Below are positions 1,927-50,768 of a stretch of DNA of 64,000 bases, one piece after another. The translations under genes were made by a program, and so were the position numbers. Under the pieces are notes generated by a model. The model did not search any database. It saw nothing but the letters and a program-made list of their open reading frames with translations, and was not told the origin of the DNA. This DNA is from Owenia fusiformis (taxonomy: Eukaryota; Annelida; Polychaeta; Sabellida; Oweniidae): NCBI GenBank assembly GCA_903813345.2, contig CAIIXF020000012.1:29336684-29400683 (forward strand), written 5' to 3'. Each line of letters opens with the position of its first letter. Position 1 is the first letter of the stretch.

Positions 1927-3048
1927 TTATGAAGTTTTTAATCTAGAGGGTATTACACTCTGAGATAACACCCTCATTTTCTCTACAGTACTTGATAGAA
2001 TACAGTTCACCTCCCCAACATTTAGATTATGTTGCTTGTCTAATGACACATTCATAGGTTCTTTGATGCCATCTTCTTCATCGACGAGCAGCTTCTTGAA
2101 CTTTCCAGTTGAGCTGAGAAGATGAACTGTATAATTGGCGGAACTAGCTACAATAATGTTCCCAAGCGAATCTACGCACAATCCCCTTGGAGTAAGATTT
2201 TGCGCGTCATATTTGAAGAGTATGTCGCCCTTCTGGATATAACCGACAACGATGCTATCTTTGAAATATGAAATGACAGCTATCTTACTGGAGGTGATTG
2301 CCATCGAGGGCATTTTACCATCACTCCTTACATTACACGTGGCCTTTGTAGTGTTCGTAGTGAGATCGATGAATAGTAACTTGTATGCTGGTTGACATCC
2401 CTGTAAGACTGCCAACTCTTGTGCTGGAGCTCCTGCTACACATTGTACTGGAGCCTCCACACAATCTATGGACCCAACTTTGATACCTTGATGGCTCAGT
2501 ATGCTTATGGTGCCAGGTTTTCGATCCACTGCTATGATTTTATTTCCAATAGATGTGAGCCGTACACATTCTTTATCAATGTGCTTGTTCACATTGAGTG
2601 TGTCGGCGTCTACTATGTTAATACCGTCCTTGCCATGCGCTGTGACTAGATTCCCGTTTGCTAATATAGTCATGGATTCTAAAGCAGGGAAAGTGTTACC
2701 TTGCTTCTGTATCTTGGCACATTCCTTGACATCACTCGAGTGTTCTGTAACACCACGATGGCAGAGATCCTTCTTTGGTGCCTTATTCTTGTTCAAAGCT
2801 TCCAGTAAATTCATTACTTTAAAATTGGTCTTCAAATTTTGGGCTCCACCTCCAGGCATGTCGAATGGTGTTTTGCATTCCGGACATGGACACTGCACCT
2901 TTCCCCGGGTCTTCGCCCAATTATTTAGGCAATCACAACAAATGGTGTGGCCACATCCGGGGATCAACTTAGGAAGCTTCAGTTGTTCAAGACAAATCGA
3001 GCATTCAAGGTGAGCCCTTACGACATTTTCCACTCCATCATTTGCCAT
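1927..3048 (-). CDS. RING-finger / NHL-like propeller protein, copy A (frameshifted tail)
   Basis: Single open frame of 373 residues starting at the ATG at 3046-3048. A longer frame begins with a GTG further upstream, but this ATG is conserved in all three copies. The N-terminus carries a C3HC4 RING (CSIC near residue 16, CGH near 32, CCDC near 37, CPEC near 55), the zinc fold of E3 ubiquitin ligases. No B-box or clear coiled coil follows. Residues of about 120-360 have the look of an NHL-type beta-propeller (PRGLCVD..GNIIVAS, VHLLSSTGKFK). Compared with copies B and C, 7 bp are missing near 2022-2028, so the last 30 or so residues are replaced by an unrelated tail ending in RLKTS. This loses the final propeller strand motif (GCWGGELY in copy C). 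It lies head-to-head with FReD gene A. The family (TRIM2/TRIM56-like without B-box) is recognised by motif only; ligase activity is inferred. Confidence 0.8.
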   Translation of the reverse strand: MANDGVENVVRAHLECSICLEQLKLPKLIPGCGHTICCDCLNNWAKTRGKVQCPCPECKTPFDMPGGGAQNLKTNFKVMNLLEALNKNKAPKKDLCHRGVTEHSSDVKECAKIQKQGNTFPALESMTILANGNLVTAHGKDGINIVDADTLNVNKHIDKECVRLTSIGNKIIAVDRKPGTISILSHQGIKVGSIDCVEAPVQCVAGAPAQELAVLQGCQPAYKLLFIDLTTNTTKATCNVRSDGKMPSMAITSSKIAVISYFKDSIVVGYIQKGDILFKYDAQNLTPRGLCVDSLGNIIVASSANYTVHLLSSTGKFKKLLVDEEDGIKEPMNVSLDKQHNLNVGEVNCILSSTVEKMRVLSQSVIPSRLKTS

Positions 3049-3718
3049 ACTGCAACGCCTTGTCACTCTTGTGCATCAAGTTATCACACCTGAAATCATA
3101 AATCATTTTTAATTGGTGCAACCCAAATATTATGTTATATCAAAATTGTTATATGAACAATTTCAGGCGTTTTTAAACTAAAACTGTGTAAATGAAGTCC
3201 AAACGTGGCAATATACCTCTTTTAGTAGGAAGAAAAAACACCACCCGGTCATATGACCCACCAAAACATATTTCACATGGAAATGACTTTATACTGGCAG
3301 CACCATCGTCACTTGTATGAAAGTAATGAATTGTACACTTCGTGCACAGTAAACAAACTAGAGGATATAAATGATACGAATTCATACAATGTGGCATATG
3401 TTATCTTGTGTGATCTGTAAATCTGGAGATACCGTGATCTTTTGAAAGATGTTAAAGGTTTTAACATGTTGGTTAGCATGTAGTCAGATTCATTAAGGAT
3501 TCTCATTTGCTTAAGTTATCAATTCAATGTGTATAATAACAATATTTCATTCCATTAACAAAGGCAACACTGACAATATTTTGCCACAGACTTTTGTTAT
3601 TCCTTTTTCTCAGTAATGGCCCATTACGGAATGTAAATTATTATAACATTTGGTGATTATAGTCAATTTAAATTTCTTTTTTCTGATTAAACTCAAACTA
3701 TTTTGTATCATCATAAAC
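3049..3718. promoter_or_regulatory. Shared divergent promoter interval, unit A
   Basis: This 670-bp gap separates the start codons of the minus-strand RING gene and the plus-strand FReD gene. The same arrangement recurs in unit B (37581-38189) and unit C (46746-47404). The stretch around 3570-3660, including TTTTGCCACAGACTTTTG and a CAGTAATGGCCCATTACGGA palindrome, is almost unchanged in all three copies, as expected for a shared control region, although recent duplication alone could also explain it. A TGATTTCAG just upstream of the RING start codon (reverse strand) could be the acceptor of a 5' UTR intron. No convincing TATA box is seen. Confidence 0.5.
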
Positions 3719-6700: not shown

Positions 6701-9700
6701 TATTACCAAAAAGGTCCTCGCCATTGTTCAAATCAATCAGCAGATTGGGTAACTTGGTGTAAATCTTATCATCATTGACCACAGCAGCCCTGGCTAGTAA
6801 GATTTAGTTGTAGTGTATATCAATTACCACTAGTAGCGCTGCTTAACTGATGTAGGCTATTAGCATACTTAAGGCTGTATCACTATCTCATTATCTATTA
6901 GGCAGTGCTTAATGATGTTTAATGTTTGCTGTGATTTTATCTTTCTTAAATAGTTTTAATAATCTGGCATAAAATTGGAATCATAACCATATAATCATGA
7001 GTGTCATTAGGATGACATTGAAGTACCATTTAGAAATTTGTAAGTTTCAATGCCATATTATAGTAATTATTAATAGAAAGGTGTTAAAACACATCTCTGA
7101 AATTCATGCATGTTAGTAGCTACAATGTCTGTGTTTGATGACTATGTTTTGTGTGTGTGTGTGTGTGTTTGAACTTTATAATCAATGAAATACTCACAGT
7201 TCAATCCTCTAACTTCTTAGTTCTTTTTCTTCGGCACTTAACGACAGGATTAGCGGCTATCAGTTCTGGTTGGCATGTAACTATGTGCTCATTAAACGTC
7301 GACAAAAGTCTATTGAGGGGGTTCCTAATCCCGCACATTCTCCTGTTAAGGTGGTTAAATACTTTGTGGATTCCCTCTATTCCCTGCTCACCTTGAAGAG
7401 CAACTCCACATTTGTATTTTGTTATCCAGGGTACAATGTGGTCCTCAAGCATGTGTTGTTTGACTGTAATTCGTGTCCGGGGAAAGCATTGTCTATATTT
7501 TGTTAAGTATGCATCTATTTTTGATTGAATTTGAGGTATATCCATTTCATCTATTGGTTTGTCATGACTAATTGCTTGGTGTATTGGGAGAAACGTCTGG
7601 TTTACCTGTTTGAACCCACGGCAAATTTTTTTCGCTTTTTTTACCATCAATCTTTCAACTTTCAGGCCTTTTGATATTTTGATTGTGGCAGCAACAACAT
7701 TGTCACATAAATCATTAAACACATCTTCATTTAAATACTTATGGCATTGGTTTCCGACAAATGAACCACCATGATATGCCTCACGATGTATGTTATGTTT
7801 TTTCAAAGTATCATCCAATACATTTGCAACTGTCCCTGCCTCAATGTGTAACTGATTCTTCTTTTCCCGCTGTTTAATATCAGCCTCCATTGTTTCACGT
7901 TTGGTCAGATTTGTTATTGTGTTATATTGTTCTCTCAATTTTTTTATTTTATCAAGTTCAGTGATGTATTTCCCGTATGGGGTATCCCTTTTCTGATCTC
8001 TAAGGGCATCCTGTTCAGCTATACACTCAGCGATTGCCTTATCAATTCTATTACAGTGCAGCAATAATAGATCATGGTGTTTTTTTACAATTCCCAACAA
8101 GATGTGAAGGTATGGTGGACATATTGCATCTGTGTCTATTTCCATAATAGGAGAATTAATAACGTTCATGTATAACTTTGCTTGTTTCTTGTCTCCCTTT
8201 CCTTCGTTAAGAAACTTTTTGTGGTATGTTTTTAAAGTTTCCATCGTCCTAGGCTGTGATGCCCCCCTCGCATCATGTGGAATGTGTAGTGAATTTGTAT
8301 GAATATGACAGTATAAGCAAGGATGCAAACCAGCAGCACCAGAAATTCCCATTATTCTGCAGAGAAATTCGTAATCCCCGCACATACATAATTCTATTGT
8401 TTTATTATTCCATTTCATGTTTTTAATTTTGTTTATCTGGGAGGTGTATCTTGAAAGAAGGGTTTCCTGATTTTCTCTGCTATCATTTGCGCACATTACT
8501 GCAAATACCAATACATTGTCTGTTTTATTTGGAAGTGGTGTGTTCAGTACCTGCAGGCTGACTTTAAACGATCCTCCACCTTTATCACCCCCAACTTTGA
8601 CCCATATCGAATCATGAGGAATAACAGGGTGATCTAATGTCAGCATATTATATTTCAACATGTTGTCCAGGTGGTTAGATAGATGTTGTGGTAGATCCTC
8701 AATGTAAGCCATTGGCATTCTTTCGTATATGATGCCTTTGTGTCCATTGGGAGATATTAGATTCCTTTTCCCAAACTTTTTCATTTTGCCACGCAGCTTT
8801 ATTTTCTCAAGTAACTTGTTTCTATATTCCCTTTGTTTATTTTCACTTTCTATTTTGATGTTAGATCTTGACAACTGCCGTGTAATTACTTTAACTTGGC
8901 CCCATGATAATTTGGCAGCTGCCTTCATAGAGAGAGCCTGTTTCCCGGAAAGTTTTGATGCTTTTATTTTGGTATATTTTTCCAACTTTTCCCGGTTCTT
9001 CCTCCTATAATGTTGGACACGCCACTCACGTGACAGCTGGTGCAAAATTGAGTCATCAGTCCCTCCACTTGTTGCCTTTCTGTACTTTCCTATTTTTTGT
9101 GCTCGCCTCTTTTTTAATGGTGAAGAGGCTGATTCACTTTTAACTTGTGCTTGCTCAACTTTGAGAAAAACTAGTGGCTGGAAAAATTGGAACTATTCTT
9201 AGCACATGGATGTTGATCTATGAAGAAATTATTTCAAAATAAATGTAAATGTGCAATTAAATGAATAGCCCACAAAACAGCTGTATTTCAAGAGGCTAAG
9301 TCTAACAAATGTGGAGGGGAGCTTTTTTGATTGATTTTTCATTTACTTATCTATTTATTGATTCTGTTTATTCAATTCATTCCTTCATATAACATTGGTA
9401 CACTTTGGTAATTTTACTTGCAGTGATTGACTATAATTTAGTTATTTTTGATATAAAGGATAATTACCTTTCCTCCAGTTTTGCAGTGGAGCTCCTCTTT
9501 CTTACGGGAATGATTTAACTTTCTTTTAACCAATGAAGTCAGAAGCTTATCTTCCAATACTGACAATGGCTGATCACTTGGTTTTTGCAAGATGTCTCTT
9601 ATTGTTGCATCACGTCCTCGGCCAGGTGTCATACAGGTAGATGCGTCATTGTCGCTTATCACATTACACCTCTTTTTTGGTGTGCTGTGACTCATACTAA

Positions 9701-11536
9701 TATCTCTTGCAAAGTCCTCCTCATTCAAACTTGTTTCAAATGATCTTTTCCTTGATTTTTGAAAAGGATTGGCGCTTTGGTGTACTTCGCACGTCCAACA
9801 TTTCTCAGAGTCATTTTCTATCCATTTTTTGTTGACATTTGAATATAATGTGAGTGTTTCTAAAGGTATTTGTCTTTTCCTCCTGTTTAAATCCTTAATA
9901 AGCCTGTAACATTTCTCACACACTTTTGATGGATGATACAGTGGTTCATCTTCATCTAACTTTATAGATGGGCATATTTTAGAGAGCTCTGACTGAATAA
10001 GTATACATGATCTTGCTTTGACATTTTGTTTAGAAGATTTTCTTTTAGAAGAGCACAGCCTACACAGTGATTCCAATGCTCTTTGATGTTCATCTTGATT
10101 GTGAAAATAAGAGGAAACTGATGCTTGTTGTGTATTTGACATTTTTATCTTGTACTGTTCTCACTAAATGGGAGTTTGTCAATGTGTAGGGTCTACTAAA
10201 ATTAGTTAATCTTCAAAACTAGCGATGCGCCCCAAATGAAACTTTCTTTAAATGATAGGAGACATCTTGCTCTAAAATAATCAGTAAATTTCATTTGGGG
10301 TTGACCGACAAAATTTTTACTTATGAAGGGTTAAAGTTGAGGAACATTAAGATAATTAGCAGAACATTAGTGAGATACTGAATCTTCTTGATTTCATCAC
10401 TTGCATGCTTTGAAATAGATTAGTACCAATTAGTATGATAGACAAGTGAATACACTAAGGATATCTAGTGAAATTAGACTTTAACATGCTCAAATGAACT
10501 ATGTGGGCAATTCTAACTAAAACAAACGAGTATCTTGAGCCTGACTATCAGCCATCTTGATGCTGTTTATTACCAAGCAACAAGCTAAAGCGAGGCTCAT
10601 GAATATATTATGCTGAAGATCATGTTACATTTAGGCTTGCAACTAAATCTTACTAGCTAGAGCTTACAGGGCTGCTGTGTGACTTATTATGTCACCACCA
10701 AAAGTCAACTTTTTGTGGACGGCGTTCAGCGGTTGGTGTTCGGAGCTCGGCGTCTGTAACAAACGGCATGTTGCGATATATTGCATGTTAATGCCTTGTA
10801 TATATTGTCAGTATTCACTTACTATATTCTCAATGCTTTGCTATTTATTCTTCCAGAACTGTCTACCAATGTCACATTTCCTGTAGCAGAAGATTGCAGT
10901 GGGCAAGCGGATGGAGTCCATATAATAACCACCAGGACTGGTAAACAGTTTCTTGCAAGATGTGAAAGCGGTTGGCTCATACTTGCACACCGCTTCGATG
11001 GGAGTGTGGACTTCAACCTGGATTGGGCAGCTTACAGACAGGGCTTTGGCAATATTTTCAGAGAACACTTTAGAGGAATGGACAACATTGTAGCTGTGTT
11101 ACAACAGAAGATATACAAGGCAAGGTTTGACCTGACAACATGGGAGAATGAGACACGATACGCTGAATATAGAACATTTGACATTAATGATGAAAAGAAC
11201 AAATACCGGTTGAATATTGATGGCTATAGTGGAACAGCAGGTGATTCAATGAAAAATGCCAATCATGACCAATTCTCAACCAAGGATTCTGATAACGATG
11301 CTGACAAAAGACATTGCGCTGTGGTTTTTCAAGGGCCTTATTGGTATGGAAGTGGTTGTAACGGCGTCTATGGTTCTGTCTTTGGCAAATACATAAAAGG
11401 TTCCAAATGCACAGGTAACTATGCGGGTGCATTTGGCTGTATAACTTGGCATTATTGGCCTGAGAAACTCCCTGGAGTTACTGCCAATTATCATTATTCT
11501 TTCAAAGAGATAAAGCTCAAAATCCGACCAATTTAA
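3719..11536 (+). CDS. Secreted coiled-coil fibrinogen-related protein, copy A (5 exons, transposon in intron 4)
   Basis: Exons 3719-4139, 4456-4566, 5179-5271, 5558-5683 and 10857-11536 all have GT/AG borders, all splice in phase 1, and join into an open 476-residue protein. Residues 1-20 form a signal peptide (MQCSIAYSWAILCLGCLIAV), followed by a GGGGQG linker and a coiled coil with repeated seven-residue units of type DDVSNLR. Exons 2 and 3 each encode a VCNKSSxMFxxIxxQLKxC module, probably for inter-chain disulphides. Exon 5 (residues about 251-476) is the fibrinogen-related domain: the DGSVDF, YSGTAGDS and FSTKDSDND calcium-site motifs, GPYWYGSGC, and a KLKIRPI end. The family binds carbohydrate or acetylated ligands outside the cell, as in invertebrate FREPs and ficolins. 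Intron 4 contains the 3.9-kb RAG1-like transposon in antisense, and its splice sites are untouched. Calling an immune role is inference. Confidence 0.88.
4172..4355. mobile_element. Short inverted-repeat element (CACATTT type) in FReD intron 1, copy A
   Basis: The ends are imperfect inverted repeats: TCAGTCACATTTGATCTACG on the left and CGTAGAGCAAATGTGACAGA on the right, with GGCNNCCGTA/TACGGC stretches inside. The GC-rich ends stand out from the AT-rich intron. The same element sits at the same place in intron 1 of copies B (about 38655-38828) and C (about 47934-48108), so it was there before the gene duplicated. Probably a MITE; superfamily not known. Confidence 0.6.
4620..5045. repeat. GC-rich conserved block in FReD intron 2
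   Basis: A block clearly richer in GC than its surroundings, starting near GTCACAGCGTGGCGGCC and ending near CGTCGTAGCCTAGTCGTAG. Copies occur in intron 2 of genes B (about 39100-39510) and C (about 48350-48770). It contains an 88-codon open frame (4618-4884) that is broken in copy B, so coding is unlikely. The CGTAG/CTACG words at its edges recall the CACATTT element of intron 1, and it may be a larger relative. Confidence 0.4.
5757..6486. mobile_element. Foldback (long inverted repeat) element in FReD A intron 4
   Basis: Present in copy A but absent at the same place in copies B and C, where GGAGCGAAA runs directly into TTTCAATTG. The left end (GGTATCGATATGGAGAACTG) pairs with the right end (CGCCATATCGATACCCATCC), and the inner arms 5993-6110 and 6165-6262 are also inverted copies, so nearly the whole element can fold on itself. 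A related copy lies at about 25310-25698. No open frame is present. No clear target duplication can be read. Confidence 0.7.
7201..10142 (-). CDS. RAG1-like transposase with N-terminal zinc region (2 exons, about 883 aa)
   Basis: Exon 1 is 10142-9468 and exon 2 is 9177-7201. The 290-bp intron has a GTAATT donor and a TTTTTCCAG acceptor, both phase 0, joining CKTGGK to PLVFLK. Exon 1 carries three CxxC pairs (CRLC at 27, CEKC at 75, CWTC at 115) inside HPSKVCEKCY and KKWIEN..CWTC. This is the layout of the RAG1 N-terminal zinc region (LCRIC, HPTEFCHNCW, CDIC). Exon 2 carries the catalytic core. Candidate DDE residues are D423 (GGDKGGGSF), D493 (CGDYEFLCR) and E826 (GIEGIHKVF). The zinc pairs CLYC (512, 515) and HMLEDH (800, 805) keep the CxxC and HxxxxH spacings of RAG1. 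It would cut and join the transposon ends. No stop or frameshift is seen. Residue assignments are alignments by eye. Confidence 0.87.
9178..9467 (-). other. Predicted intron of the RAG1-like transposase gene
   Basis: Donor AAAG/GTAATT and acceptor TTTTTCCAG/CCACTAG on the minus strand keep the frame open through both exons. Two nearer AGs (exon starts at 9170 and 9158) would shift the frame, so the distal acceptor is preferred. Without splicing, the first exon runs only seven codons past the junction region before a stop. Confidence 0.75.
10227..10301. promoter_or_regulatory. Inverted repeat upstream of the transposase start
   Basis: GCCCCAAATGAAA near 10228 pairs with TTTCATTTGGGG near 10290, about 50 bp apart. 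It lies between the start codon (10142) and the right terminus (10679), where a promoter or a transposase-binding site would be expected. No function is shown. Confidence 0.35.
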
Positions 11537-38189: not shown

Positions 38190-41100
38190 ATGCAGTGCTC
38201 CATAGCATACGGTTGTGCAATTCTTTGCCTCAGCTGTTTAATTGCAGTTGAATCTAAAAGGAAGAAGCCTAGTGGTGGCGGTGGCCAGGGTACTGGACAA
38301 GGAGTCACTCGAGCTGAATTTGGGGAGCTGAAAGAAGCAATACAACTCTTGATTGAAAGCAGCGATGCCTTGAAAACGGAACTGAAAGAAGATTCTGCAA
38401 GCATAAGAGATGAGGTGTCAAATCTGAGGGATGACGTGTCTAATCTAAGAGATGGTGAATCTGAAAATATTGCTAGTATCAGAGAAGAGTTGTCCGATGT
38501 CCGTGACAATCTTGTCGAACTGAAAGAATCGATGGCAGAAATGAAGAGCGAAATATCAAATGACAACACTGAGAAAGCTGATACTGAAACGAAGACTAAT
38601 GTACCACTGTTTGACTCAGAAGGTGAGATGTTTACAATGTTTACCTTATAAATATATAATGCCCTGATCACATTTATTCTACGACAACCGTATGGCGGCC
38701 GTAGCTTCCCAAAATCGAGAGAAATATTCAGCATAAAATATAGAAATGAGCAGTACGATGTTTCAATATCGATTTGGTGAAGCTACGGCCGCCGTACGCC
38801 CACCGTAGAGCAAATGTGACCGAGGCTTAAGAAAGTAATTCATCTCCCAGACGTTTTGTTACAAGGTTCTCGTTTTATGCTTTTTCGTTATTCGACGCAG
38901 ATTGTATGTTTGATTATTATGTATTTGCAGTTTGCAACAAGTCCTCCACAATGTTCCAAGAAATTAAAGATCAGCTGAAAGGTTGCCAAAAAGATGCGTT
39001 AACAACCGAAAGTCGTTTCAATGTTCCCGCCAGTTCTGAAGGTAAGAATATTTAGTGCAACATGCATCAATAGTTATTGTGAACAATAGTTATTGTTAAC
39101 GTAAGTTTGTCACGGCGTTGCGGCCTTGGGGTCTAAATTGTCTCAGGCCAATAGGGACGCCGTAGCGTTCCCATGGTCACATACTGTTAACAGTATGTTA
39201 CAGCTCGGTCAGATATGCTAGAATTGCCGCATGGTGTATTCTGAATTTGTTGAGACGGGAAACTTGCGGCGGCCGTATAGCCTTTGAAGTGATGAAACAC
39301 GGTCGTCTTTGGGCGCCCCTGCACTTTGGAACGGCTCTACTGCATGGTCACGCCGTATCTAATTGCTACGACTAACATAAAATCATGAAAATATTTCTCG
39401 CTACTACGGCCTGAGATAAGCAGCGGATGACCCTGAGATCGCCCCAACTATCTCTTGATTTCGGGGAGAGAGGTCTAGGGCGTCGTAGCTTAGTCGTAGA
39501 CTAAATGTGAATGAGATATAAATTAGGCCCATGGCATGGCTTTTTCTTTTCGATAATAAAAACAAAGTATAACAAATTCAAATGGCATAATTTCTTCATT
39601 GACACATTCCAAGCTCTAATTTGTTGTTATTTTATAGCATTCATGTATTTTCAGTTTGTAACAAATCATCAAGGATGTTTGAAGCCATTAAAGAACAACT
39701 AAATAACTTCCGATGCCCGGAAACCACGGAGAATAATGAAGCAAATGGTATTTTTCTTGAATTGTCTTCCTTAAATATGATATAATGTAAAACGCACGAA
39801 TCTTGACTTTAAAATGATATAATTGTTATTTGATTAGTAGGTCGCAAATTAATTAATTAAAACACGTTCCAATAATTAATCAAGATGTGATGAATCATAT
39901 CAAATTTGTGTATTTTATTAAATATTAAATGTAAGAAATGAATATAAAATTTGAACTGAGACGGAGTAAAAGTCGAGCAAACTTAACAGATCTGAAATGT
40001 CCATATTTTTAATGTTTTGTCATGTTGTAGGAAAATTCAACGAGTCCACATCGGGGACAGAATCGTTGAAGGAAGATCTTGAAATGATGATTCGGGAACA
40101 AATGAAGAAACTAGTAGAGACGTGCAGGATAGGATCAGATGATCAAACATATTCAGGTACATATGCACGTATTGGCGTAAACACCTTGAAAATTAGGTCT
40201 ATACAGATAATTTAATATGATGGGAGCGAAATTTCAATTGAACATACTTGGAATGAAATAAAGTCAGAACTGTTGTATTGGGCTTTCTCAGAATATAGGA
40301 ATGGCGAGAAATGTTGTTAGTCATTGAATTTGTTTTAATTGTGTCAACTTTGTTATCTATGTGCTTACGTGGCTTTAAATCTGCATTTTATTCTCAAATG
40401 GCTGGGTGGGTAAAAAATAAATTGGTTTTAATTAACCAATTAATACTTTCATATTACCAGAAAGGTCCTCGCCATTGTTCAAACCAATCAGCAGATGGGG
40501 TAACTTGGTGTAAATCTTCTCATCATTGACTTATTATGTCACAACCAAAAGTCAACTTTTTTGTGGACGGCGTCCAGCGGTTGGTGTTTGGCGGTCAGCG
40601 TCTGTAACAAACGGCATGTGATTTGCCAGTGTCGTGTCATCATTAACTTATATAAATTATCCACTTATACTAAATACTTTGTTATCCGTTTCCAGAATTG
40701 CCTAACAATGTCACATTTCCTGTCGGAGAAGATTGCAACGGGCATTCGGATGGAGTCCATGTAATAACCACCAGGACTGTTAAACGTTTTTTTTGCAAGA
40801 TGTGAAGATGGTTGGCTCATACTTGCACACCGCTTCGATGGAAGTATCGAGTTCAACCTTGAATGGGCTTCATACAGACAGGGTTTCGGCAATATTTTAA
40901 GAGAACACTTTATAGGAATGGACAACATTGTAGCTGTGTTGCAACAGAAGAGGTACAAGGCAAGGTTTGACCTGACAACATGGGAGAATGAGACACGATA
41001 CGCTGAATATAGAACATTTGACATTAATGATGAAAAGGACAAATACCGGTTGAATATTTATGGCTATAGTGGAACAGCAGGTGATTCAATGAAAGGTGCC

Positions 41101-45632: not shown

Positions 45633-46745
45633 CTAGAGGGTATTACACTCTAAGATTGAACCCTCATTTTCTCTACAGTACTTGATATAATACAGTTCAC
45701 CTCCCCAACATCCGACAATTAGATTACATTGCTTGTCTAAGGAGACATTCATTGGTTCTTTGATGCCATCTTCCTCATTGACGAGCAGCTTCTTGAACTT
45801 TCCAGTCGAGCTGAGAAGATGAACAGTATTATTGGTGGAACTAGCTACAATAATGTTCCCAAGCAGATCTATGCATAACCCCCTTGGAGTAAGATTTTGC
45901 GCGTCATATTTGAAGAGTATGTCGCCTTTCTGGGTATAACCGACAACGATGCTATCTTTGTAGTAGGAAATGACAACTATCTTACTGGACGTGATTGCCA
46001 TCCAGGGCATTTTACCATCACTCCTCACATTACACATGGAGTTCGTAGTGTTGGTAGTGAGATCGATGAATAGTAACTTGTACGCTGGTTGACATCCCTG
46101 TAAGACTGCCAACTCATGTGCTGGAGCAGCTGCTACACATTGCACTGGGGAATCCAAACAATCTACAGACCCTACTTTGTCACCTTTGTGGCTCAGTATG
46201 CTAATGGTGCCAGGTTTTCGATCTACTGCTATGATTTCATTTCCAATGGATGTGAGCCGTACACATTCTATATCAATGTGCTTGTTCACGTTGAGTGTGT
46301 CGGCGTCTACTATATTAATACCGTCCTTACCATGCGCTGTGACTAGATTTCCGTTTGCTAAGACAGTCATGGATTCTAAAGCAGGGGAAGTTTTACCTTG
46401 CATCTGTATCTTGCCACGCTCCTTGACATCACTCGAGTGTTCTTTGACACCACGATGGCAGAGATCCTTCTCTGGTGCCTTATTCTGGTTCAAATCTTCC
46501 AGTAAATTCATTATTTTGAAATTGGTAATCAAATTTTGGGCTCCACCTTCAGGCATGTCGAATGGTGTTTTGCATTCTGGACATAGACATTGCACCTTTC
46601 CCCGAGTCTTCGCCCAAGTATTCAAGCAGTCACAACACATGGTGTGGCCACATCCGGGAATCAACTTAGGAAGGTTTAGTTGTTCAAGACAAATGGAGCA
46701 TTCAAGGTGATCCCTCACGGCATTTTCCACGCCATCATTTGCCAT
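45633..46745 (-). CDS. RING-finger / NHL-like propeller protein, copy C (intact)
   Basis: 370 residues in a single exon from the ATG at 46743-46745. The C3HC4 RING has C16, C19, C32, H34, C37, C40, C55 and C58. It is followed by a short linker with a CHRGV..H motif too small for a B-box, then an NHL-like propeller at about 115-365 (NIVDADTLNV, RKPGTISILSH, PRGLCID, NTVHLLSSTGKFKKL, GCWGGELYYIKY). The RING suggests an E3 ubiquitin ligase with the propeller as target-binding part, acting inside the cell. It is divergent from the intact FReD gene C at 660 bp. This is the reference copy: A has lost the C-terminal strand by frameshift and B has a stop. Substrate is unknown, and the NHL call is by pattern, not by search. 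Confidence 0.85.
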   Translation of the reverse strand: MANDGVENAVRDHLECSICLEQLNLPKLIPGCGHTMCCDCLNTWAKTRGKVQCLCPECKTPFDMPEGGAQNLITNFKIMNLLEDLNQNKAPEKDLCHRGVKEHSSDVKERGKIQMQGKTSPALESMTVLANGNLVTAHGKDGINIVDADTLNVNKHIDIECVRLTSIGNEIIAVDRKPGTISILSHKGDKVGSVDCLDSPVQCVAAAPAHELAVLQGCQPAYKLLFIDLTTNTTNSMCNVRSDGKMPWMAITSSKIVVISYYKDSIVVGYTQKGDILFKYDAQNLTPRGLCIDLLGNIIVASSTNNTVHLLSSTGKFKKLLVNEEDGIKEPMNVSLDKQCNLIVGCWGGELYYIKYCRENEGSILECNTL

Positions 46746-47404
46746 ACTGCAAAGCCTTGTCACCCTTGTGCATCAAGTTATCACAAACTGAAATCATAAA
46801 TCATTTTTCATTGGTGCAACCCAAATATTATGTTATATCAAATTGTTATATGAACAGTTTCAGGCGTTTTTAAACTAAAACTGTGTAAGTGAAGTCCAAA
46901 CGTGGCAATATACCTCTTTTAGTAGGAAGAAAAACCGGTCATATGACCCACCAAAACATATTTTGCATGGAAATGACTTTATACAGAAAGCATCATCGTC
47001 ACTTGTGCAGAAGTAAGGAATTGTACACCTTGTGCACAGTGTACAAACTGAAGGATATATGATTCCGATTCATGCAATTTGGCATATGTAATTTTGTGTG
47101 ATCTGTAAATCTGGAGACGCCGTGATCTTTTGAAAGATGGTTAGAGGTTTTAACATGTTGTGTAGCATGTAGTTAGATTCATTAAGCTTTCTCATTTGCT
47201 TTAAGTTATCAATTCAATGTGTGCAATAACAATATTTCATTCCATTAACAAAGGTAACACTGACAATATTTTGCCACAGACTTTTGTTATTCCTTTTTCT
47301 CAGTAATGGCCCATTACGGAATGTAAATTATTATAACATTTGGTGATAATGGTCAATTTAAATTTCTTTTCATTAAACTCAAACTATTTCGTATCATCAT
47401 AAAC
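46746..47404. promoter_or_regulatory. Shared divergent promoter interval, unit C
   Basis: 659 bp between the two start codons, matching unit A over its whole length with few indels. The block at 47265-47350 (TTTTGCCACAGACTTTTG to ACATTTGGTGA) is the best-conserved part in all three units and lies 60-140 bp upstream of the FReD start, where a core promoter would be. Confidence 0.5.
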
Positions 47405-50400
47405 ATGCAGTGCTCCATAGCATACGGTTGGGCAATTCTTTACCTCGGCTGTTTAATTGCAGTTGAATCTAAAGGGAAGAAACCCAGTGGTGGAGGTGGC
47501 CAGGGTACTGGACAAGTCATTAAAGATGAATTTGGGAACCTTGAAGAAGCAATGCAACTCCTGATCGAAAAACTGAAAACAGATCTGAAAGAAGATTCTG
47601 CAAGTATAAGAGATGAGGTCTCAAATCTGAGGGATGACGTGTCCAATCTAAGAGATGGTGTGTCCACTCTGCAAGATGATTTATCCACTTTACGAGATGG
47701 CGAATCTGGTAATATTGCTAGTATAAGAGAAGAGTTGTTAAATCTAAGAATGGGGGAATCTGATGTTCGTGATAATCTGGTGGAATTGAAAGAATCGATG
47801 GTAGAAATAAAGAAACAGTTGAGCGAATTGTCAAATGACAACACCGAGAAAGATGACACTGGCGACATTAAGACAAATGTACCACTGCTTGACTCAGAAG
47901 GTGAGAAATGTACAATATTTATAAATATCTAATGCCTCAGTCACATTTGATCTATGGCAACCGTATGGAGGCTGTAGCTTCCCAAAATTTAGATACATAT
48001 GCAGCATAAGAAGGATAAGCAGTATGATGTAGATTTTCTATATTGATTTTGTGGTGAAGCTACGGCTGCCGTACGCCCGCCGTAGAGCAAATGTGACAGA
48101 GGCTTAAGAAAGTAATTCATCTCCCAGACGTTTTGTTACAAGGTTCTCGTTTCATGCTTTTTCGTTATTCGACGCAGATTGTATGTTTGATCATTATGTA
48201 TTTGCAGTTTGCAACAAGTCCTCCACAATGTTTCAAGAAATTAAAGATCAGTTGAAAGGCTGCCAAAAAAATGAGTTAACAACCGAAAGTCGTTTTAATG
48301 TTCCCGCCAGTTCTGAAGGTAAGAATATTTAGTGCAACATGCAACAATAGTTTGGTCACGGCGTGGTGGCCTTGGGGTCTAAAATATCTAAGGCCAATAG
48401 GGACGCCGTAGCGTTCCCATGGTCACACACTGTAGCGGTTAGATGTGCTAGAATTGCCGCATGGCGTATTCTGAATTTGTTGAGACGGGAAACTTGCGGC
48501 GGCCGTATAGCCTTTGAAGTGATGAAACACGGTCGTCTTTGGGCGCCCTTGCACTTTGGAACGGCTCTTCTGCATGGTCACGCCGTATCTAATTGCTACG
48601 ACTAACATAACTAACATCATGAAAATATTTCTCGCAACTACGGCCTGAGATACGCCGCGGATGACCCTGAGTATATCAAAGATAACCTGCGGCCGCCCCA
48701 AGTATCTCTTGATTTCGGGGAGAGAGGGCTACGGGCGTCGTAGCCTAGTCATAGACTAAATGTGAATGAGATATAAATTAGGCCCATGGCTTTTTCTTTT
48801 ATAGCATTTATAGCATTTATGTATTTTCAGTTTGTAACAAATCATCAAGGATGTTTGAAGCCATTCAAGAACAACTAAAGAACTTTCGACGCCCGGAAAC
48901 CACGGAGAATAATAAAGCAAATGGTATATTTCTTAAATTGTCTTAAATATGATATAATGTAAAACGCGTGAAACTTGACTTTAAAATGATATAATTGTGA
49001 TTTGATTAGTAGGTCGAAAATTAATTTTGAAAAACACGTTCCAACAATTAATCAAGATGTGATGAATCATGTCAATTTTGTGTATTTTATAAAATATTAA
49101 ATGAAAGAAATGAATATAAAATTTGAACTGAGACAGGGTTAAAGTCGAGCAAACTTAACAGATCTGAAATGTTCATATTTTTAATGTTTTGTCATGTTGT
49201 AGGAAAATTCAACGAGTCCACATCGGGGACAGAATCGTTGAAGGAAGATCTTGAAATGATGATTCGGGAACAAATGAAGAAACTAGTAGAGACGTGCAAG
49301 ACAGGATCAGATGATCAAACATATTCAGGTACACGTATTGGCGTAAACACCTTGAAAATTAGGTCTATTCAGATAATTTAATATGATGGGAGCGAAATTT
49401 CAATTGAACATACTTGGAATGAAATAAAGTCAGAGCTGTTGTATTGGGCTTTCTCAGAATATAAGAATGGCGAGAAATATTGTTAGTCATTGAATTTGTT
49501 TTAATTGTGTCAACTTTGTTATCTATGTGCTTATGTGGCTTTAAATCTGCATTATATTCTCAAATGGCTGGGTGGGTAAAAAAGAAATTGGTTTTAATTA
49601 ACCAATCAATACTTTCATATTACCAGAAAGGTCCTCGCCATTGTTCAAACCAATCAGCAGATGGGGTAACTTGGTGTAAATCTTCTCATCATTGAATTAT
49701 TATGTCACCACCAAAAGTCTCCAACGTTTTACGGTCAAGTCAAGTAACTTTGCTGGTATGGCTTTAAACTTCCAATATATTCTCAAATGGCTGGTTGGGT
49801 AAAAATGAAATTGGTTTTAATTAACCAATCAATACTTTCATATTACCATAAAGGTCCTCGCCGTTGTTCAAACCAATCATCAGATTGGGTAACCTGGTTT
49901 AAATCTTCTCGTCATTGACTTATTATGTCACCACCAAAAGTCAACTTTTTTGTGGACGGCGTTCAGCGGTTGGGGTTTGGCGGTCGGCGTCTGTGACAAA
50001 CGGCATGTGATCTGCCAGTATCGTGTCATCATTAACTTATATAAATTATCCACTTATACTAAATGCTTTGTTATTTGCTTTCCAGAACTGCCTAACAATG
50101 TCACATTTCCTGTCGGAGAAGATTGCAACGGGCATTCGGATGGAGTCCATGTAATAACCACCAGGAGTGGTAAACGGTTTCTTGCAAGATGTGAAAGTGG
50201 TTGGCTCATACTTGCACATCGTTACGATGGGAGTGTAGACTTCAACCTTGGGTGGGCAGCTTACAAACTGGGATTTGGTGATATCATGAAAGAACACTTC
50301 ATAGGAATGGACAACATTGTGGCTGTGTTACAACAGAAGAGATACAAGGCAAAGTTTGACCTGACAACATGGGAGAATGAGACACGATACGCTGAATATA

Positions 50401-50768
50401 GAACATTTGACATTAATGATGAAAAGGACAAATACCGGTTGAATATTGATGGTTACAGTGGTACAGCAGGTGATCCAATGTTACATGCAAATCATGACCA
50501 ATTCTCAACCAAGGATTCTGATAACGATGTTGACAGTAGACATTGCGCTGTGGTTTTTCAAGGGCCTTATTGGTATGGAAGTGGTTGTGATGGTGCACTT
50601 GGATCTGTTTTTGGTAAATACATTAAAGGTTCCAAATGCACAGGTGCATCATATGGGGGTGCATATGGTTGTATAACTTGGCATTATTGGCCCGAGAAAC
50701 TTCCTGGAGTAACTGGCAATCAGTATTACTCTTTTCAAGAGATAAAGCTCAAAATCCGACCAATTTAA
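47405..50768 (+). CDS. Secreted coiled-coil fibrinogen-related protein, copy C (5 exons, intact)
   Basis: Exons 47405-47900, 48208-48318, 48831-48923, 49203-49328 and 50086-50768, all GT/AG and phase 1, encode 502 residues. They comprise a signal peptide (1-20), a GGGGQGTGQ linker, a longer coiled coil than in A (extra units GVSTLQD, DLSTLRD and an ASIREEL stretch), two VCNKSS modules (exons 2 and 3), an acidic helix (exon 4), and the FReD from about residue 276. The FReD keeps DGSVDF, the WENETRYAEY strand, YSGTAGD, the FSTKDSDND calcium site, HCA..GPYWYGSGC and the KIRPI end. Exon 3 has NFRRPE, lacking the second cysteine present in copy A. Intron 4 holds a tandem duplication (49520-49692 and 49760-49918). 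The protein is probably an oligomeric secreted lectin; ligand and immune role are inferred from the family. Confidence 0.9.
49520..49918 (+). repeat. Tandem duplication in FReD C intron 4
   Basis: The stretch GGCTTTAAA..TTCTCAAATGGCTGG.. to TCATCATTGA occurs twice, about 220 bp apart. Copies A (6610-6776) and B (40365-40530) have it once. The second copy is more diverged. Confidence 0.6.

Follow-up and report, generated by a model that had tools for sequence, protein, structure and literature searches.

A Chapaev-type transposon of Owenia fusiformis with a RAG1-N-like zinc region and unequal, bipartite ends

The element and its insertion site

The window, a 64,000-nt stretch of the Owenia fusiformis genome, carries on its minus strand a complete, 3,900-bp DNA transposon of the Chapaev type at 6780-10679. 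Confirming the original prediction of an intact transposon at this position, the element has paired ends, a TGAC target site duplication (TSD) and unoccupied paralogous sites. Its termini are of the CAC...GTG type with short inverted repeats: the outer terminal repeat, CACAGCAGCCCTG, forms a perfect 13-bp inverted repeat between the gene-start (5') end (10667-10679, minus strand) and the gene-end (3') end (6780-6792, plus strand). The insertion point reads CATTGAC/TTATTATG and shows a 4-bp duplication, with the left copy of TGAC at 6776-6779 and the right copy at 10680-10683. Just upstream of exon 1, the element also contains an 18-nt inverted repeat (10230-10247 and 10283-10300), whose arms are 89% complementary and 35 nt apart.

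Unoccupied sites were sought in the window with a query consisting of 100 nt of the left flank, including one TGAC, joined to 106 nt of the right flank. Two matches, at 40431-40619 (93%) and 49820-50008 (92%), cross the junction uninterrupted and have the TGAC once; a third, at 49597-49719 (95% over 123 bp), has TGAA at the insertion point. In the whole genome, the junction is spanned by six matches besides the element's own two flanks, and three of the six are these window sites. The empty sites sit in repeated DNA around two fibrinogen C-terminal domain exons on the plus strand (10760-11533 and 49893-50765), and the insertion of the element is therefore younger than that duplication. On the minus strand, the duplicated surroundings also include two open frames that contain RING, 382 and 379 aa long (1930-3075 and 45636-46772).

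A transposase gene of two exons

The transposase gene lies on the minus strand and consists of two stop-free exons of 225 and 658 aa, giving 883 aa, in agreement with the approximately 883 residues that had been predicted. Exon 1 (9468-10142) holds the RAG1-N/Chapa-like zinc region (residues 16-121, nt 10097-9780); a 290-nt GT-AG intron occupies 9178-9467; and exon 2 (7201-9177; coding 9177-7204, stop 7203-7201) holds the putative transposase core, with DUF1280 at residues about 46-253. The position of the intron, with its GT...AG, is kept in 12 of 15 copies; in L030 and L031 the intron is apparently shifted, and L034 has lost the acceptor. One relative, L037, has zinc region and transposase within a single 904-aa open frame, and the order of exon 1 and exon 2 is the same across 11 loci. 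Judged from these sequences, exons 1 and 2 are one gene encoding one protein, as originally proposed. On an open-reading-frame basis, 6780-10679 contains no other long frame free of overlap with the two exons that could represent a RAG2-like partner.

The N-terminal zinc region

Exon 1 contains three CxxC pairs, at residues 27/30, 75/78 and 115/118, which are invariant in all ten aligned sequences. The original prediction had likened this region to the N-terminal zinc region of RAG1, a likeness that we recovered with the family but not with the window's exon 1 alone, for which neither hmmscan nor a single-sequence PDB search returned a RAG1 model or PDB chain. When all ten exon-1 family sequences were combined into a profile (A1) and compared with the PDB, RAG1 chain 21wb was matched at E=2.1e-7 and full-length RAG1 at 1.8e-4. 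After removal of the four most RAG1-like rows (L027, L032, L036 and L037), 21wb was still the top match, but at E=0.02. Alignment of the exon-1 profile with the mouse RAG1 N-terminal stretch by hhalign yielded a probability of 94.5 and a score of 51.2, a score reached by none of 100 shuffles in which C, H and W were fixed (maximum 25.4); the agreement therefore exceeds the metal ligands. Failure of exon 1 to match any RAG1 N-terminal profile, or assignment of the exons to separate genes, had been named as outcomes that would speak against the prediction; neither occurred, the profile match being found at the level of the family. Homology of the exon-1 N-terminus to the RAG1 N-terminal zinc region is supported at this family-profile level.

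Individual members vary in how closely they resemble RAG1. PF12560, the Pfam model of the RAG1 N-terminus, matches four of the ten exon-1 members at E up to 0.05, the window member matching nothing; by hmmscan, exon 1 of L036 scores 37.5 bits (cut-off 23.3) and that of L027 22.6. Shuffled controls derived from two exon-1 proteins, with C, H and W kept, match neither PF12560 nor zf-AD (0 of 10). A search of the genome with PF12560 returned nine places at E up to 10, eight of which are flagged as over the cut-off (three of these only together with neighbours), and two of the nine lie within 1 kb of an exon-2 place among those listed. Neither exon 1 nor exon 2 has a match to RING. Matched by description, the zinc region is the Chapa domain of Kapitonov and Koonin (2015; PMC4411706).

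The zinc region (window 9780-10097) and its relatives also match the insect ZAD domain (zf-AD), with six of ten sequences matching and a best value, over the cut-off, of 2.6e-7; our literature search found no paper connecting RAG1-N and ZAD. A module of the RAG1-N type occurs, in addition, in a 1,034-aa open frame at L035:2451-5555 (G000:C3:4983500-4989500), where it is joined to a DUF6589 protein (1.1e-9). Aligned with profile A1 by hhalign, the module of L035 attains a probability of 95 and a score of 54 (0 of 100 shuffles), and direct hmmscan gives no PF12560 match. There are 51 genome matches to L035, many of them decayed; inverted ends were looked for in L035 and L038, and none was convincing.

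The transposase core

Exon 2 is assigned to DUF1280 by Pfam (1.3e-16), and its motifs follow the order D-D-CxxC-HxxxxH-E. Residues D198, D268, C287 and C290 are conserved in all ten aligned exon-2 sequences, and H575, H580, E597 and E601 in the nine rows that extend that far. For comparison, conserved blocks of exon 2 were slid ungapped along the mouse RAG1 core, and each placement was evaluated by its rank and by 500 shuffles; the positions of the RAG1 residues concerned were checked against the PDB letters. The D268-C290 block fits best at RAG1 D708-C730 in all three widths (rank 1 of 581, 589 and 597), a placement reached by none of the 500 shuffles of the narrow block and by five of the 500 for the 262-292 block. 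D268 (8374-8376, minus strand, as are all motifs given here) is the predicted second catalytic D, and the CxxC pair C287/C290 (8308-8319), with the same D-x18-C-x2-C spacing, is the putative counterpart of RAG1 C727/C730. The block around E601 (7375-7377), the candidate catalytic E, is best at RAG1 E962 (rank 1 of 597, or 2 of 603 in a narrower block), with 17 of 500 shuffles reaching it. The HxxxxH motif H575/H580 (7438-7455), a possible counterpart of RAG1 H937/H942, ranks 2 of 605 and 4 of 597 and does not rise above shuffles, 482 of 500 of which reach it. For the candidate first catalytic D, D198 (8584-8586), placement on RAG1 D600 is unsupported (ranks 30 of 597, 31 of 577 and 17 of 599).

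Comparisons with the core as a whole gave no match. With hhalign, the exon-2 profile scored 16.9 on the mouse RAG1 core, compared with a mean of 18.0 and a maximum of 25.2 in 60 shuffles; searched against the PDB, the same profile found no RAG1 or Transib chain and only a chance-level match to pelota (E=0.12), and a single-sequence PDB search with exon 2 found no RAG1 match. PF12940, the RAG1 core model, has no match in this genome, and none in control genomes either. AlphaFold2 run without an alignment returned poor models (pLDDT 42.8 and 40.5 for the two). As neither the whole-core hhalign nor the PDB profile search produced a match, the resemblance of the core to RAG is confined to motif architecture. 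The 'RAG-type catalytic core' of the original prediction is, in this wide sense, only partly upheld: the predicted motif order and the fit of the second-D/CxxC block to D708-C730 remain, and the whole-core similarity and the first D do not.

Related copies in the genome

At least 72 matches to exon 2 and at least 48 to exon 1 are present in the host genome; no relatives were found on viral and prokaryotic contigs. We cut out 14 related loci (L021-L034) and searched them for ends, the strict search demanding CAC...GTG pairs with at least 13/14 matching. Nine of the 14 loci had paired ends, always with an exact duplication of 4 bp and never with one of 5 bp, and for the five others (L030-L034) the strict search found none at this threshold. 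A relaxed search rescued L031 (TAAC) and L032 (ACTT), both with 4-bp duplications; a 4-bp duplication can be read in the flanks of L030 only if one extra base is allowed, L033 is alignable over 2,569 bp only, and L034 is decayed. No convincing ends were found for L036 and L037.

Five pairs of loci are nearly identical: L022/L023 (99.6% over 3,870 bp), L025/L026 (99.7% over 3,856 bp), L028/L029 (98.8% over 3,833 bp), L030/L031 (98.9% over 4,193 bp) and L032/L033 (99.6% over 2,569 bp). Near-identical copies at different sites count as evidence of mobility. The search for further copies that had been proposed was successful in that related loci with paired ends exist; the window element's own family comprises just one intact copy and the decayed L034 (about 90% over 1,186 and 444 bp, with stops). 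Three 36-bp matches to the 3' end (on C12, C10 and C3) were rejected as a stray end that lies within another repeat: in L044-L046 the similarity continues beyond the element end, and paired ends were not found there.

Unequal, bipartite ends

A second inverted-repeat block (6793-6810 and 10640-10657), missed by the original prediction, lies at distances from the two ends that differ by 9 bp. The inner end motif ATTTAGTT has the long spacing at the 5' end, where it occupies bp 32-39 (10641-10648, minus strand), and the short spacing at the 3' end, where it occupies bp 23-30 (6802-6809, plus strand). An inner A[C/T]TTAG is found behind the outer repeat in all ten elements compared, deeper at the gene-start end. 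We compared eight families, represented by the window element and by L021, L022, L025, L027, L028, L031 and L032. At the 5' end, AYTTAGTT has its best match starting at bp 32-34 in seven of the eight; at the 3' end the start is at bp 22-23, again in seven. The L030/L031 family is the exception at both ends, having a degenerate inner motif near those places. Within the seven families, the long spacing exceeds the short by 9, 10, 9, 11, 10, 10 and 12 bp. Across these families, an end consists of two parts, a CAC repeat on the outside and AYTTAGTT farther in, and the two ends of an element are unequal in spacing.

The motif also emerged from an unprompted search of all 4,096 six-mers, with at most one mismatch and a 3-bp window, which recovered ACTTAG in all eight families at the 5' end, where the window opens at bp 32, and in seven of eight at the 3' end, where it opens at bp 21. 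No six-mer exceeded three of eight at both ends in 200 shuffles, which ignore the common descent of the families. Pairwise identity between families is 0.69 (5' end) and 0.62 (3' end) over bp 1-11, falls between repeat and motif to 0.26 (5' end, bp 17-31) and 0.36 (3' end, bp 14-21), and is 0.48 and 0.57 in the inner motif. The drop to chance identity in the 5' spacer is an argument that both the motif and its position are constrained. Most families have, in addition, a block specific to one end: CCAC[T/C]AGT.G-like at the 3' end only (window 6826-6840), and G[A/T]AAC..GAT-like at the 5' end only (window 10619-10628).

In the genome, the pattern CACASC-N(10-40)-AYTTAGTTG has 71 matches versus 75 for the reversed control, and hence no total excess; a spacing of 16 accounts for 18 of the 71, and each other spacing for 0-6. 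A stricter end pattern gave 127 genome matches versus 18 reversed, the matches listed including other repeat families. Among those listed were four further facing end pairs with both spacings, at C9:37817692-37821543, C4:28172990-28176827, C8:17635940-17637511 and C3:19601543-19602998. The last (L048) is 1,456 bp long, is flanked by a TGGA duplication and matches L028 DNA at 74-84% in three pieces; the C8 pair bounds another short element, of 1,572 bp, with the same unequal ends. Both were probably moved by the transposase of other copies. Conversely, L047 (G000:C1:16849891) has an end of the gene-start type, 76% identical to that of the element over 290 bp, but with the short spacing; a partner end was looked for and not found. 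This stray end counts against a strict spacing rule.

Identity of the element and a possible pairing rule

The sequence at 6780-10679 is, with little doubt, a Chapaev-type, cut-and-paste DNA transposon, autonomous by its appearance, within the CACTA/EnSpm-Mirage-Chapaev-Transib clade. A 4-bp TSD is a hallmark of Chapaev. The element combines such a duplication with CA(C)...(G)TG termini, a Chapa-like domain (by family profile) and a predicted D-D-E in which C(2)C and H(3-4)H come after the second D and before the E, and this motif order and these termini are those described for the CACTA-Mirage-Chapaev-Transib clade (PMC12730594). The original assignment to the Chapaev group is in line with these features. 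Of the features of RAG1 and RAGL, a 5-bp TSD, a profile-level RAG1 core, a RAG2-like partner frame and a RING (ZDD) after the zinc region were not found.

Other identities were weighed. A true RAG-like element (RAGL/ProtoRAG) or Transib, that is, direct kin of RAG1, could likewise have a RAG1-N-like zinc region, CAC ends and the RAG1 motif order seen in exon 2, yet the duplications are of 4 bp and not of 5 bp as in RAGL and Transib (PMC7204232), no second gene is found within the 3,900 bp, and the core is unmatched to RAG1 or Transib chains; we regard this identity as highly improbable. A domesticated host gene, to which the single intact copy in the family and the long open frame might point, is more improbable still, given intact ends and a duplication, the absence of the element at paralogous sites, and relatives that are repeated and in some cases decayed. 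Nothing was found in favour of the two exons being adjacent but different genes, the chance of which is negligible in view of the GT...AG shared by most copies, the single frame of L037 and the constant exon order. The conserved splice site, the 4-bp duplication and the empty paralogous sites with intact ends led us to reject these three alternatives. The zinc region could, finally, be a ZAD-type domain for host chromatin or dimerisation that resembles RAG1 by convergence on CxxC pairs; zf-AD does match more of the ten exon-1 sequences (six) than does RAG1_imp_bd (four), but against the RAG1 N-terminus the hhalign score was higher than in any of the 100 shuffles that held C, H and W constant, and we consider convergence improbable.

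For the Chapaev-type element, the ends contain what a 12/23-like signal would require, an outer CAC plus an inner motif whose spacing takes two values that differ by about one turn, with L030/L031 and L047 as exceptions. In the mechanism we envisage, the core would cut at the outer CAC in the manner of RAG and Transib, and another part of the transposase would hold the inner motif; one long-spaced and one short-spaced end would be joined in a single complex, from which the whole element would be excised and inserted with a 4-bp stagger. The zinc region may serve dimerisation or host contacts. A 12/23-like rule, under which the transposase would bring together one bipartite end with the long spacing and one with the short, the two differing by about one helical turn, is a tentative proposal that we think possible rather than probable. 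The inner motif at two spacings might, instead of a synapsis signal, be a leftover of common descent or a promoter or terminator element, which we likewise regard as possible but doubtful. The families are related, their ends have specific blocks, as regulatory DNA might, and L047 breaks the pattern; against this, the 5' spacer is at chance identity (0.26) and the motif is not (0.48-0.57), the orientation of the motif is the same relative to both ends, and the motif is kept in the short elements of 1,456 and 1,572 bp.

If the 12/23-like rule is true, the signal logic of RAG would extend to a distant branch of the same clade, one that bears RAG1-N, without need of RAG2, and such logic would either have been inherited from before RAG1 and Transib or have evolved in parallel. 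With eight Chapaev families, seven of which have two spacings that differ by 9-12 bp and several of which have near-identical copies, this one genome offers natural material for asking if a 12/23-like rule operates beyond RAG and Transib. That a RAG1-N-type module is also present on a protein of a second class, DUF6589, bears on the proposed ancestral fusion of this module to the RAG/Transib/Chapaev core. In Kapitonov and Koonin (2015; PMC4411706), the Chapa domain is said to occur in no other known transposable elements, a statement that L035 counters if DUF6589 proteins are transposases.

Comparison with known systems

A RAG1-N-like zinc region and a transposase core in one Chapaev protein are already known. 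Chapaev transposases with a RAG1-N-like Chapa domain are in print in PMC4411706, which cites Kapitonov and Jurka (2007) for them and reports RING in two Chapaev subgroups; that such proteins bear on how RAG1 gained its N-terminus, as the original prediction proposed, was argued there also and is hence not new. Like those elements, the present one has a zinc domain, a transposase core, CAC ends and a 4-bp duplication; unlike them, the present families are new, are without RING and have unequal, bipartite ends. A literature search of titles and abstracts, with Repbase and subscription papers outside its scope, found no description of unequal, bipartite Chapaev ends, and the 12/23-like end asymmetry of these families is apparently new.

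With vertebrate RAG1 and its 12/23 signals, the element shares an N-terminal zinc region, the D2-x18-CxxC spacing and CAC-started bipartite signals with two spacer lengths about one turn apart. It differs from vertebrate RAG1 in having no RING, no RAG2-like partner frame and no profile-level core match, and its inner motif is AYTTAGTT, whereas the nonamer of the recombination signal sequence (RSS) is A-rich. The RSS heptamer and nonamer lie 12 or 23 bp apart (PMC8289069), so that, computed from the lengths given there, the nonamer starts at bp 20 or 31, compared with about bp 22-23 or 32-34 for the motif here. ProtoRAG of lancelets, with spacers of 27 and 31 bp (PMC8289069), resembles our element in its unequal, bipartite ends with an outer CAC and differs in its two genes, 5-bp duplication, 4-bp spacer difference and RAG1-type core; invertebrate RAGL is expected to be rather insensitive to asymmetry (PMC7204232).

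According to a 2021 review (PMC8355894), some Transibs are the only known case of 12/23-asymmetric transposition outside V(D)J recombination. These 12/23-ended Transib families belong to the same transposon clade and have, as here, spacings unequal by about one helical turn; they differ in their 5-bp duplications and in their core, and that review is not known to report a RAG1-like N-terminal region for them. N-RAG-TP of Aplysia is, like the present element, a case of RAG1-N-like sequence in a transposable element, and differs in that, per the same review (PMC8355894), it is composed only of N-terminal-like sequence.
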